The translations under genes were made by a program, and so were the position numbers. The notes beneath the pieces were generated by a model that was not told where the DNA came from, searched no databases, and saw nothing but the letters and a program-made list of their open reading frames with translations. A stretch of 64,000 nucleotides of DNA from Kaiparowitsia implicata GSE-PSE-MK54-09C (GTDB lineage: Bacteria > Cyanobacteriota > Cyanobacteriia > Elainellales > Elainellaceae): NCBI GenBank assembly GCA_019359435.1, contig JAHHHI010000067.1, positions 1-64,000 on the forward strand. Direction: 5' to 3'. This document shows, piece after piece, positions 2,620-17,281 of the stretch; position 1 is the stretch's first letter, and each line of letters begins with the position of its first letter.

Positions 2620-3807
2620 ATGCGCGTAATTTTGATGACGGGGAAGGGCGGCGTGGGCAAAACCTCAGTTGCAGCCGCAACAGGGCTGCGCTGCGCTGAG
2701 TTAGGCCACAAGACCTTAGTACTCAGCACCGATCCAGCCCACTCTCTAGCCGACAGCTTTGATCTAGAACTGGGGCATGAGCCTGTCTTGGTACGCCCAA
2801 ACCTCTGGGGTGCAGAACTAGACGCACTGATGGAACTCGAAGGCAACTGGGGCGCGGTCAAGCGCTACATTACCCAGGTGTTGCAGGCGCGAGGGCTCGA
2901 TGGTGTGGAAGCCGAAGAACTCGCGATCCTCCCAGGCATGGATGAAATTTTTAGCCTCGTCCGCATGAAGCGTCACTACGACGACGGTGACTTCGATGTG
3001 TTGATTATCGACTCAGCGCCCACGGGCACAGCGCTGCGCCTGCTGAGCTTGCCAGAAGTAGCAGGCTGGTACATGCGCCGCTTCTATAAGCCGCTGCAAG
3101 CCGTATCTGCGGCACTACGGCCTTTGGTAGAACCCATCTTTCGACCCATTGCGGGCTTCTCGTTGCCCAACCAAGAAGTCATGGATGCCCCCTACGAGTT
3201 CTACCAACAAATTGAAGAACTAGAGAAAGTGCTGACCGATAGCGCTGTCACCTCGGTTCGGTTGGTGACCAATCCCGAAAAAATGGTGATCAAAGAATCG
3301 CTGCGGGCGCACGCCTATCTCAGCCTCTACAACGTGGCGACAGATATGGTCGTGGCTAACCGCATCATTCCCGATAGCGTCACTGATCCCTTTTTCCAAC
3401 GTTGGAAGGAGAACCAGCAGCAGTATCGCCAAGAGATTCACGACAACTTCAGCCCGCTGCCGGTTAAAGAAGTGCCGCTATATTCCGAAGAAATGTGTGG
3501 CATCGCTGCGCTAGAGCGGCTCAAAGAAACGCTGTATGGCGACGAAGATCCGTCTCAGGTCTACTACAAAGAAACCACCATGCGTGTGGTGCAAGGCGAT
3601 GGTCACTATAGCTTAGAGCTATACCTGCCGGGCATCCCCAAAGACAAGGTGGAACTGAGCAAATCTGCCGACGAACTAAACGTGAGAATTGGTAACCACC
3701 GCCGCAATTTGGTACTGCCCCAAGCGCTCGCAGCGCTCCAGCCCGCTGGTGCCAAGATGGAAGACGATTACCTCAAAATTCGGTTCGCCAGTCCAGTCAC
3801 TGCTTAG
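2620..3807 (+). CDS. ArsA/GET3-family ATPase with C-terminal HSP20-like domain
   Basis: This 395-residue P-loop ATPase has a deviant Walker [10 protein letters not shown] at residues 8-16, a switch I-like DPAHSLADS near residue 40, and [12 protein letters not shown] around residues 131-142, all diagnostic of the ArsA/GET3 group. The last 75 residues (from about 320, including [19 protein letters not shown]) resemble the ArsA-HSP20 domain often fused to bacterial and plastid ArsA homologues. I see no CxxC zinc pair of eukaryotic GET3, and no arsenite pump gene is adjacent. A role in arsenite export is therefore unlikely; handling of membrane proteins or another client is more plausible but unproven. 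The ATG start follows an AT-rich leader. A small MITE sits immediately after the stop codon. Confidence 0.85.
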
Positions 3808-3815
3808 CGCTTTTC

Positions 3816-3906
3816 GGCGTTGCTGAATGACGCTATGATTTCGCCGGATTGAGGACAGAACTACAAGGCTTTCAGAAACTGTTTCATAGACTGATTCAGC
3901 AACGCC
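3816..3906. mobile_element. 91-bp MITE with IS1-family-like ends and 8-bp TSD
   Basis: The element begins GGCGTTGCTGAAT and ends ATTCAGCAACGCC, giving 13-bp perfect terminal inverted repeats. It is flanked on both sides by the direct repeat CGCTTTTC (3808-3815 and 3907-3914), an 8-bp target-site duplication. The same terminal sequence GGCGTTGCTGAATCA occurs at the left end of the 755-bp IS1-family element at 16406, which also made an 8-bp duplication. The 65-bp interior has no coding capacity. It is inferred to be a non-autonomous derivative mobilised by an IS1-family transposase. The insertion is one base after the stop codon of the ArsA gene. Confidence 0.85.
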
Positions 3907-4113
3907 CGCTTTTCAACCTAAGTTGTAGTGGGTTCACGAGACACCGGTTTTCCCCTTGCGACCCAAGGATGGGGCTCTAAGGATTGCGCATTAAATAACG
4001 TGGGATAGCCGTCCCGGCTGTCCACGGTCAGGCAAGATGCCTAACCTACAAGAACTGCACATTAAAAGATCCGTGTTCCTACGCTTATCTCGGTGTGGCA
4101 ACAGGTTGAATAA

Positions 4114-4133
4114 GGGTGCAAGAACTTGCACCC
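4114..4133. repeat. Short inverted repeat in the ArsA-membrane protein gap
   Basis: GGGTGCAAG and CTTGCACCC form a 9-bp stem with a 2-nt spacer. It lies in the otherwise uninformative 3915-4197 interval, which also contains a stretch around 4010-4050 (GTCCACGGTCAGGCAAGATG) of the kind that recurs in cyanobacterial intergenic repeats. There is no T-run, so terminator function is doubtful. Confidence 0.5.
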
Positions 4134-4197
4134 TACATCTGAACCCATCAGGACAATGACCCGATGGAATCCTCACGATCAGGTATTCGGTTGATCT

Positions 4198-4722
4198 ATG
4201 CCCGTTACAGCTGCATCCGTTGCTTCTAACCCATCTTTCCTCGGCAAGCCACGCTCTCTAGGGCAAGTGGTGCGACGATCCGTGCTGTCGGGGTTGGTCT
4301 ACTACGCCTATTACAAATGGATGATTCACGATGAGCTGAAGCGCTATCAGGGCCACGGATGGTCTGGGGTGCTGTGCCTGATGCCGTTTCTGGTGGGGAT
4401 TGTGCTTCCGAAACTTTTGCAACGGTATGATCCTGATGTTCCGGGGTGGTTTGGCTGGTTCTCGCTGGTGGGGCTCGGGTGGATCTACATGGTGCAGTTT
4501 CGGCTATACCGCACTGTGAATGGCCTGTACCGAGAGCTGGGGCAGGCGGAGCCACTGAGGATTTGGTGGCTGTTTGTGCCAGGGCTGAACTTGCTGGTAG
4601 GGCTGCGGCAAATTCACTACCTCAGTCGGTTTTGGGCGATGCAGCGCGGAGAACGAGTGACCGATCCGGTGGCGGCAGCGCTGCTTGGTTTATTCGGGGA
4701 AACGTCAGCACTAGATTTGTGA
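4198..4722 (+). CDS. Multi-pass membrane protein, DUF4234-like
   Basis: The 174-residue product has about three hydrophobic segments: near residues 34-44 (SGLVYYAYYKWMI), 60-75 (LCLMPFLVGIVLPKLL) and 80-100 (GWFGWFSLVGLGWIYMVQF), with a further hydrophobic stretch WWLFVPGLNLLVGL near 127-140. The pattern of YxxYKWMxxEL followed by GWxGxL resembles DUF4234-type proteins, but I am not sure of the family. It is predicted to sit in the plasma or thylakoid membrane. The pentapeptide-repeat gene follows 52 bp downstream on the same strand, so the two may be cotranscribed. Function unknown. Confidence 0.65.
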   Translation: MPVTAASVASNPSFLGKPRSLGQVVRRSVLSGLVYYAYYKWMIHDELKRYQGHGWSGVLCLMPFLVGIVLPKLLQRYDPDVPGWFGWFSLVGLGWIYMVQFRLYRTVNGLYRELGQAEPLRIWWLFVPGLNLLVGLRQIHYLSRFWAMQRGERVTDPVAAALLGLFGETSALDL

Positions 4723-15965: not shown

Positions 15966-16400
15966 ATGCCTAGCTCTAAACCCCTCTCCAAGTTCGACGA
16001 GCAGTCAGTTGGATCTCACCAAAGGCTCCCTCTGGCGGGCAGTCCCGCCTGCGATGAGCAGCATCCCTTGGATTTGGGGCAGGCGCGGCGGCTCTATCGC
16101 GATCTGCTGGGGTATGAAAAGGCGCAGCGGATGGCAGAATTTTTCTCGCTGCTGGGTGATACAAATCGGTTGAGGCTTTTATCGGCCCTGTCGATTCAGG
16201 AACTGTGCGTATGCGATCTGGCTGCTGCGGTGAAGATGAGTGAGTCTGCGGTCTCGCATCAGCTTCGAACCCTACGCACGATGCGACTGGTTAGCTATCG
16301 CAAGCAAGGGCGCAAAGTGTTTTACTACCTGAAAGACAGCCATGTTCTGAATCTCTATCGAGAAGTGGCTGAGCATCTAGATGAGCCCATCGACGAGTAG
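15966..16400 (+). CDS. ArsR/SmtB-family metal-sensing repressor
   Basis: The 144-residue winged-helix regulator carries the alpha-3 motif [11 protein letters not shown] (C81 and C83). It also has a complete alpha-5 ligand set D124-x-H126-x10-H137-x2-E140, exactly the D-H-H-E spacing of Zn sensor SmtB. The recognition helix is [13 protein letters not shown]. The C-V-C pair is as in ZiaR, BxmR and CadC, and a further cysteine (C29) and several histidines lie in the extended N-terminus. It is predicted to bind DNA as a dimer and release it on Zn or related metal binding. The usual partner (P-type ATPase or metallothionein) is absent from the window. An IS1-family element is inserted at its stop codon, with the TAG retained as the first bases of the target duplication. 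Confidence 0.88.
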
Positions 16401-16405
16401 ACGTA

Positions 16406-17160
16406 GGCGTTGCTGAATCAAGGGATGAACCTTGGAGGGACAGGGACATCGCCGAACTTGAGGTAGTGAAGTAACAGTCGGATCGAGTGAGCTAGCATTT
16501 CTACGGACTTAGAGTAGCAAAGCGTTTTGCGATGCAGACGGGCTAGATAATGCCGTAACCGAGTGTTTTCTCCTTCAACCCGAGTCATGTAGGTTTTGCT
16601 GACAATCTGATCGCCTTCTGGAATAAAGCTGGGATACACCGTCCACCCGTCAGTGACATAGAAGTAGCACTGCCAACGAGCAACCAACGACCAGAGCGGT
16701 TGAAACGTCTGGGAACTATGGTCACCTAAGACCCAACCCAAAATCCCTGTCCTGAAGTGGTCAACGGCCGTCCATAGCCAAATCTTGTTTTTTTGAGCCC
16801 ACAAAGGTTTCTAGCTCGTCCAGTTCACCGACCTCTGGGGTTGTTTCAGGGTCGTACGCATCCGGAAGCAAGTCGCCTACCTGCTTCACCCAGGTAATCA
16901 CGGTTGTATGATGCACCCCTTTGACCCGCTCAATGGCTCGAAACCCATAGCCATTGACGGTACATCTTGAGGCACTCGCGCCTGACCTCATCTGAGTACC
17001 CTCGGTGAGGCTCGTAGGCATCAATGAACTGACGACCGCACGCGACACAGATGTGATTTTGTTTACCCTTTCTCTTCCCATTCTTACGGATATGGGTAGC
17101 TCCACACTCTGGACATTGCATCGCACATTCCCCTAACTCATCTCTTAATTATGCAACGCC
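16406..17160 (-). mobile_element. IS1-family insertion sequence, 755 bp, with 8-bp TSD
   Basis: Its ends are GGCGTTGCTGAATCAAGG on the left and, read inward from the right, GGCGTTGCATAATTAAGAG, so they are imperfect terminal inverted repeats. The direct repeat TAGACGTA flanks both sides (16398-16405 and 17161-17168). The element carries an InsA/InsB-type transposase on the minus strand. The left duplication contains the stop codon of the ArsR-family gene, whose protein is unchanged by the insertion. Confidence 0.93.
16418..17121 (-). pseudogene. IS1-family transposase with two frame disruptions
   Basis: The N-terminus MQCPECGATHIRKNGKRKGK with CVACGRQF is an InsA-type zinc finger. It reads in frame to ECLKMY (about 16960), where one extra base shifts the frame. 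The helix-turn-helix part NGYGFRAIERVKGVHHTTV continues in the second frame to ELDELETFVGSKK. There a run of seven A residues shifts the frame again, and the catalytic part (NKIWLWTAVDHFRTGILGWV, then the E-containing ENTRLRHYLARLHRKT) reads in a third frame to the end. Both shifts need +1 (or -2) correction, so they are not the usual single -1 programmed frameshift of IS1. The transposase is probably inactive, unless slippage at the A7 tract and an upstream event restore it. Confidence 0.85.
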
Positions 17161-17281
17161 TAGACGTAGATGGTTGGTTGGTTGTCAGCGCAAAGCCCGC
17201 ACTCATCGCGATGTTCTGATGCGAATCATTTTTTGATGCTCCCGACTTGACGAGATTGAAAGCGAACTTGAACCAGTACCT

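Follow-up and report, generated by a model that had tools for sequence, protein, structure and literature searches.

A 91-bp MITE with IS1-like ends beside an ArsA-type gene in Kaiparowitsia implicata, and its relatives in other cyanobacteria

The MITE and the insertion sequence in the window

The window analyzed here, a 64,000-nucleotide stretch of the draft genome of Kaiparowitsia implicata GSE-PSE-MK54-09C, carries a miniature inverted-repeat element (MITE) next to a gene for an ArsA-type ATPase and, further along, an insertion sequence (IS) of the IS1 family (Table 1). The MITE starts 8 bp 3' of the stop codon of the ATPase gene. The original prediction of a 91-bp MITE with perfect 13-bp terminal inverted repeats (TIRs) and an exact 8-bp target duplication was borne out, as GGCGTTGCTGAAT stands as a perfect inverted repeat at both ends and CGCTTTTC flanks positions 3816-3906. 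This stretch is short and non-coding, ends in TIRs, lies within a target duplication and recurs in several copies, all of which are hallmarks of a MITE. The exact 13-mer occurs three times in the window, and two of these occurrences are the MITE ends; when up to two mismatches are allowed there are six matches against 2.31 expected, a number that 4 of 100 shuffles reach.

Table 1. Coordinates of the features discussed, given as positions in the window
Feature	Position	Strand	Basis
Host neighbor gene: ArsA-type ATPase with C-terminal HSP20-like domain	2620..3807	+	
Left 8-bp target duplication CGCTTTTC of the MITE, directly 3' of the stop codon of the ArsA-type gene	3808..3815	.	
MITE, 91 bp; no room for a transposase gene	3816..3906	+	ends, copies, fold prediction
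Left TIR, 13 bp; followed inward by GACGCTATGATTT	3816..3828	+	
Right TIR, 13 bp; followed inward by CAGTCTATGAAAC	3894..3906	-	
Right 8-bp target duplication CGCTTTTC of the MITE	3907..3914	.	
Left 8-bp target duplication TAGACGTA of the IS	16398..16405	.	
IS1-family insertion sequence, 755 bp; transposase ORFs on the minus strand	16406..17160	-	
Catalytic part of the IS1 transposase, PF03400 DDE_Tnp_IS1, E 4.4e-23	16418..16804	-	
Right 8-bp target duplication TAGACGTA of the IS	17161..17168	.	

The element at 16406 had been described as a 755-bp member of the IS1 family with an 8-bp target duplication, and this description holds. Its PF03400 match (E 4.4e-23) lies above the curated cut-off and identifies an IS1-type DDE transposase, while its length of 755 bp and the presence of TAGACGTA on both flanks agree with a family whose members are about 750 bp long and duplicate 8 to 9 bp of target. 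Members of the IS1 family join two ORFs by -1 frameshifting on an A-run; in another copy of this genome (C43), two ORFs overlap at an A7C run (read by eye), where such frameshifting may take place. The window IS has a frameshift in its first ORF that the C43 copy lacks, and it is therefore probably defective. It begins GGCGTTGCTGAATCA, and its far end reads GGCGTTGCATAAT, unlike the MITE ends. The claim that the IS and the MITE begin with the same 15 bases holds for the MITE's right end when this is read inward, whereas the left end reads GA after base 13 and shares 13. The MITE differs from the IS1 family in having no transposase and in having ends that start with GGCGTTGC, while classical IS1 ends begin GGT.

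Copies and ends in the K. implicata genome

The 6.7-Mb draft genome (109 contigs) holds seven matches to the MITE, namely four 91-bp copies, the window's included, that are 96-100% identical to the window MITE, C103, which is 79 bp long, and C88 and C87, which are 91-bp members of a diverged subfamily. An exact 8-bp duplication is kept in four of these seven family members (C72, C109, C88, and C87); its absence from the other three counts against the transposon reading. The exact 13-mer is found 44 times in the whole genome, compared with 0 times for a reversed control, and was assigned by reading to 13 IS1 ends, 10 ends of 91-bp MITEs and 21 other ends, six of which have a partner end 98-173 bp away. 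When the longest ORF beside 12 of these 21 ends was scanned with Pfam, no transposase was found: eight of the ORFs match another Pfam family (one of them below its cut-off) and four match none. Other miniature elements, 98-173 bp long, likewise have a GGCGTTGCTGAAT end and differ in their interiors (L041-L044, L052, and L058); one of them (L042) carries an exact 8-bp duplication.

PF03400 has 29 matches in the same genome, and near-full IS1 copies with GGCGTTGC ends and exact 8-bp duplications lie on C72, C37, and C43. Several contigs (C10, C15, C27, C41, C44, C48, C52, C59, C70, C72, C86, and C108) end inside IS1 ends that are 83-99% identical to the window IS; therefore, recent IS1 copies have probably been collapsed and undercounted in the assembly.

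The original prediction took the two elements of the window for a clear parent-derivative pair. It is highly improbable that the MITE arose by internal deletion of the IS at 16406, even though the first 15 bases are equal at one end, the duplications are equal in length and both elements lie on one contig. A route of this kind does exist, as a 319-bp internally deleted IS1 (L037, C109:41654-41972) still has its two ends, with CTCTTGTG as an exact 8-bp duplication, and is possibly a step towards a miniature element. However, the second end of the window IS is GGCGTTGCATAAT, its first ORF carries the frameshift, and the MITE interior has no detectable similarity to three IS1 copies, with 163 of 300 shuffles scoring as well. 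Members of the MITE lineage also occur in other genera, where their interiors have diverged strongly, to about half identity, and the lineage therefore did not originate from this IS copy. The window IS was thus rejected as the direct parent on both its end and its interior sequence. IS1 copies elsewhere in the genome match the MITE equally well or better, and the window IS is best described as a member of the family that probably moves the MITE, doubtful as its parent.

Relatives in other cyanobacteria and in Richelia

When one genome per species was scanned for stretches of 71-101 bp between perfect repeats, a search from which records near the K. implicata genome may be left out, 61 stretches were returned, all of them cyanobacterial by title: 41 in Richelia intracellularis, 15 in the draft genome J069 and one each in five others. 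Exactly 91 bp was the length of 58 of the 61. Flanking sequence was sufficient in 59 of the 61, and 29 of these are bounded by an exact 8-bp duplication; none has one at any of ten shifted positions. With K. implicata included in both counts, a perfect-repeat MITE is present in 6 of 388 genomes of a class-wide sample, and the window MITE is matched in 10 of 36 genomes of the order. An alignment of 16 hand-picked sequences from 11 genomes (14 of 91 bp and two of 90 bp) has 91 columns and contains two one-base gaps, and parsimony places 162 substitutions on it when gaps are scored as unknown. Omitted from this alignment were C103 (79 bp), three near-duplicates (C87, C95, and C109) and, out of nine further loci, the four for which no pair of ends was obtained (L110, L113, L115, and L117). 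The interiors of seven representatives have a mean of 20.2 of 43 bases in common, compared with 10.8 in shuffles and at most 14.1 when shifted, and are therefore homologous in register. We regard the window MITE as a member of an old lineage of nearly fixed length.

A nearly fixed length would also suit an element that is retained because it works as an RNA hairpin at the ends of genes, as opposed to a mobile parasite. A long hairpin is predicted for the single strand (z -5.34 as DNA and -5.41 as RNA), the window copy lies directly 3' of a stop codon, and the hairpin arms contain 12 cells with two-sided changes against 5.9 in shuffles. However, the covariation score of 0.077 is nearly equaled by slid structures (0.070 and 0.068), and for this reason we do not claim a selected RNA structure. 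No Rfam match was found in 3600-4200 and no terminator-like site at the MITE, while the duplications and the many separate insertions fit a transposon. We give a function as RNA hardly any credence and continue to treat the element as mobile.

The 5.5-Mb Richelia draft (G036; loci L135-L192 in part and L278-L307) yields 603 matches to a 24-mer from the MITE core when up to three mismatches are allowed, or about one per 9 kb, compared with 0 for the control; the 24-mer is absent from four other genomes searched. All 33 copies reached by an exact core match are 91 bp long, where 70-111 bp was allowed and three further copies cut by a locus end were left out, and 15 of the 33 have an exact 8-bp duplication although their ends were not used in choosing them. 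PF03400 has 53 matches in Richelia, and element ends were read in 32 of those loci. IS1 copies with GGCGTTGC ends and exact 8-bp duplications are found at L213, L220, L308, L310, and L327.

The 10-base block that follows GGCGTTGC takes several forms on the Richelia MITEs. In a sample of 79 copies, chosen partly for TGAAT ends, the left end carries TGAATCAGGG in 53 cases and the right end in 37; ATAAGTGCGG is found on 5 left and 30 right ends, ATAATTGCGG on one left and one right end, and ATAATAGAGG on one left end. The IS1 copies of the same genome carry ATAATAGAGG on 11 of 18 left ends and ATATTTGCGG on 20 of 23 right ends, with ATAAGTGCGG on 3 of these 41 ends (one left and two right, one of the latter being the hybrid end at L323). 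The commonest MITE block, TGAATCAGGG, does not appear among the 41 IS1 ends that were classed, which counts against IS1; ATAATTGCGG is likewise absent from these 41 ends, and ATATTTGCGG from the 79 MITEs. The sharing of ends between MITE and IS1 in Richelia is real but partial, in that two of the four MITE blocks are common to IS1.

Candidate mobilizers and comparable elements

The four ends of the MITE and the window IS all have ATGA in register at positions 20-23. Over bases 14-26, MITE ends of the K. implicata genome compared in register with IS1 ends share a mean of 7.0 of 13 bases each, a level reached by 0.24% and 0.36% of shuffles, and the means for Richelia are 8.5 and 9.5 (0.28% and 0.08% of shuffles as high). 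By best single match the K. implicata MITE ends are weaker (4.9% and 0.9% of shuffles as high). The ends are thus common to IS1 beyond the outermost bases, both at positions 14-26 and in two Richelia blocks, as would be expected of an IS1-family MITE. A better match to another transposase family, which the original prediction had named as grounds for abandoning it, was looked for and was not found among the ends scanned. In the loci examined, an IS1 transposase match was found at every element that exceeds 600 bp and has both these ends and an exact 8-bp duplication. One candidate IS, formed by two ends 1346 bp apart in another genome (G037, C164), was discarded, as the frames read by eye contain no transposase.

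IS1 is the best-supported mobilizer because the ends match beyond the 13-mer, the duplications are equal in length, the scans returned no rival transposase and blocks are shared in Richelia. From the ends, duplications and copy numbers, the IS1 identity of the local transposase and some shared variants in Richelia, we infer that the 91-bp element is a non-autonomous transposon, probably inserted by IS1-family transposases acting in trans. The transposase would recognize an end of about 24 bp, consisting of GGCGTTGC, a variable block and then ATGA at positions 20-23, and would insert the MITE by an 8-bp staggered cut that gives rise to the target duplication. The window MITE would be one such insertion, placed directly 3' of the stop codon of the ArsA-type gene. 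The IS1 of E. coli is thought to act mainly in cis, which counts against action in trans.

IS1 copies with matching ends were not found in every host, the exceptions being J069, Cyanomargarita, G006, G019, and G177. At least 25 matches to the MITE were counted in J069 (25 of 30 candidates scored; fragments included), 15 of them with perfect repeats, and a PF03400 search of this genome returned only one degenerate IS1 match. The Cyanomargarita draft genome (G040; loci L256-L268) contains 51 exact GGCGTTGCTGAAT ends, a number of which form pairs about 98-151 bp apart. PF03400 has no match in this draft, nor in G006 and G019, both of which match the MITE; these results, like that for J069, count against IS1. 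The one-contig genome G177 also counts against it, with two MITE copies that lie in duplicated flanks and have no exact duplication; one of its four IS1 regions has definable ends, which differ and read GGTAATG. PF03400 is present in all six genomes with perfect-repeat MITEs, yet it is also present in 223 of the 388, so the co-occurrence of IS1 and MITE is weak evidence.

These hosts raise the question of whether, at least where intact IS1 is absent, the MITE is moved by a transposase of another family that has similar GGCGTTGC ends and also duplicates 8 bp. J069, Cyanomargarita, G006, and G019 carry the elements or their ends and no intact IS1 was found in them; in Cyanomargarita, a 400-bp element of unassigned content (L262:1136-1535) has the same ends and lies between two exact copies of the 8-bp duplication GTAGTTTT. 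We nevertheless consider a second family unlikely, given that the elements longer than 600 bp described above all lie at IS1 matches and that none of the 12 ORFs scanned beside the 21 orphan ends encodes a transposase. Identical IS copies easily drop out of draft assemblies, and J069, G006, and G019 are fragmented drafts. IS1 may thus have been lost from these assemblies, or the MITE may have outlived its mobilizer.

Comparable elements have been described in cyanobacteria and beyond. Nezha is likewise a cyanobacterial MITE with a resident IS as its proposed mobilizer, in that case ISNpu3-like (Zhou et al. 2008, as cited in PMC3733652 and PMC3049150), and is set beside our MITE by these descriptions only. 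The passages on Microcystis aeruginosa PCC 7806 in PMC11448079 report a 187-nt MITE that also has 8-nt direct repeats and a link to an IS by end sequence; however, its ends are GGCTCTTCG, the link is to an ISL3-family transposase and its length is about twice that of the window MITE. ISAba3-like elements of the IS1 family agree in end length (24 bp) and duplication (8 bp), but they are not MITEs and are described as bounding a composite transposon (PMC6382973). In Sulfolobus, two MITE classes have been linked to ISC1733 and ISC1058 (PMC3718332), and for Anabaena sp. 90, with its 147 MITEs, the main text of the report does not contain IS1 as a whole word (PMC3542288).

The open-licence literature surveyed contained no MITE tied to the IS1 family, no paper with the literal end sequence, and none joining Richelia with either MITE or IS1. 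With its nearly constant length and its 603 core matches in a diatom symbiont, such a MITE lineage would allow two questions to be tested, namely whether short DNA is moved in trans by IS1 and whether there is a constraint on the spacing of IS1 ends, and the MITE could act as a marker of transposition load in young endosymbiont genomes.

Elements with the same ends and a 7-8 bp duplication also occur at lengths of 98-151 bp, as well as 319 and 400 bp; among these are a 105-bp (L126) and a 147-bp (L121) element found via their ends in a search with the window MITE. These elements count against a strict length rule, as a length of 91 bp is not a general requirement of the transposase; the spacing of ends was bounded in most searches. 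A speculative and rather doubtful proposal is that one MITE lineage persisted across distant cyanobacteria at 90-91 bp since the IS1 transposase works on such closely set ends only if their distance and helical phase are fixed, and that it meanwhile exchanged terminal blocks with the IS1 of its hosts, which would have aided its rise to several hundred copies in Richelia, a symbiont.

Nested elements were also observed in Richelia. At L330 an IS1 is nested in a whole MITE, and at L323 one half of a MITE is fused to an IS1 with a hybrid end. We dropped this hybrid as proof of a shared transposase, as recombination between an IS1 end and a MITE end explains it; such recombination could remove one MITE half, which accounts for the hybrid end together with the outer duplication. 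End blocks may be exchanged in this way, by recombination between the ends of nested elements and in either direction. At L222, L323, and L330 the IS1 adjoins the first ~48 bp of the MITE, at the same MITE position and in both orientations, which suggests that the AT-rich center of the MITE is a hotspot for IS1 insertion.
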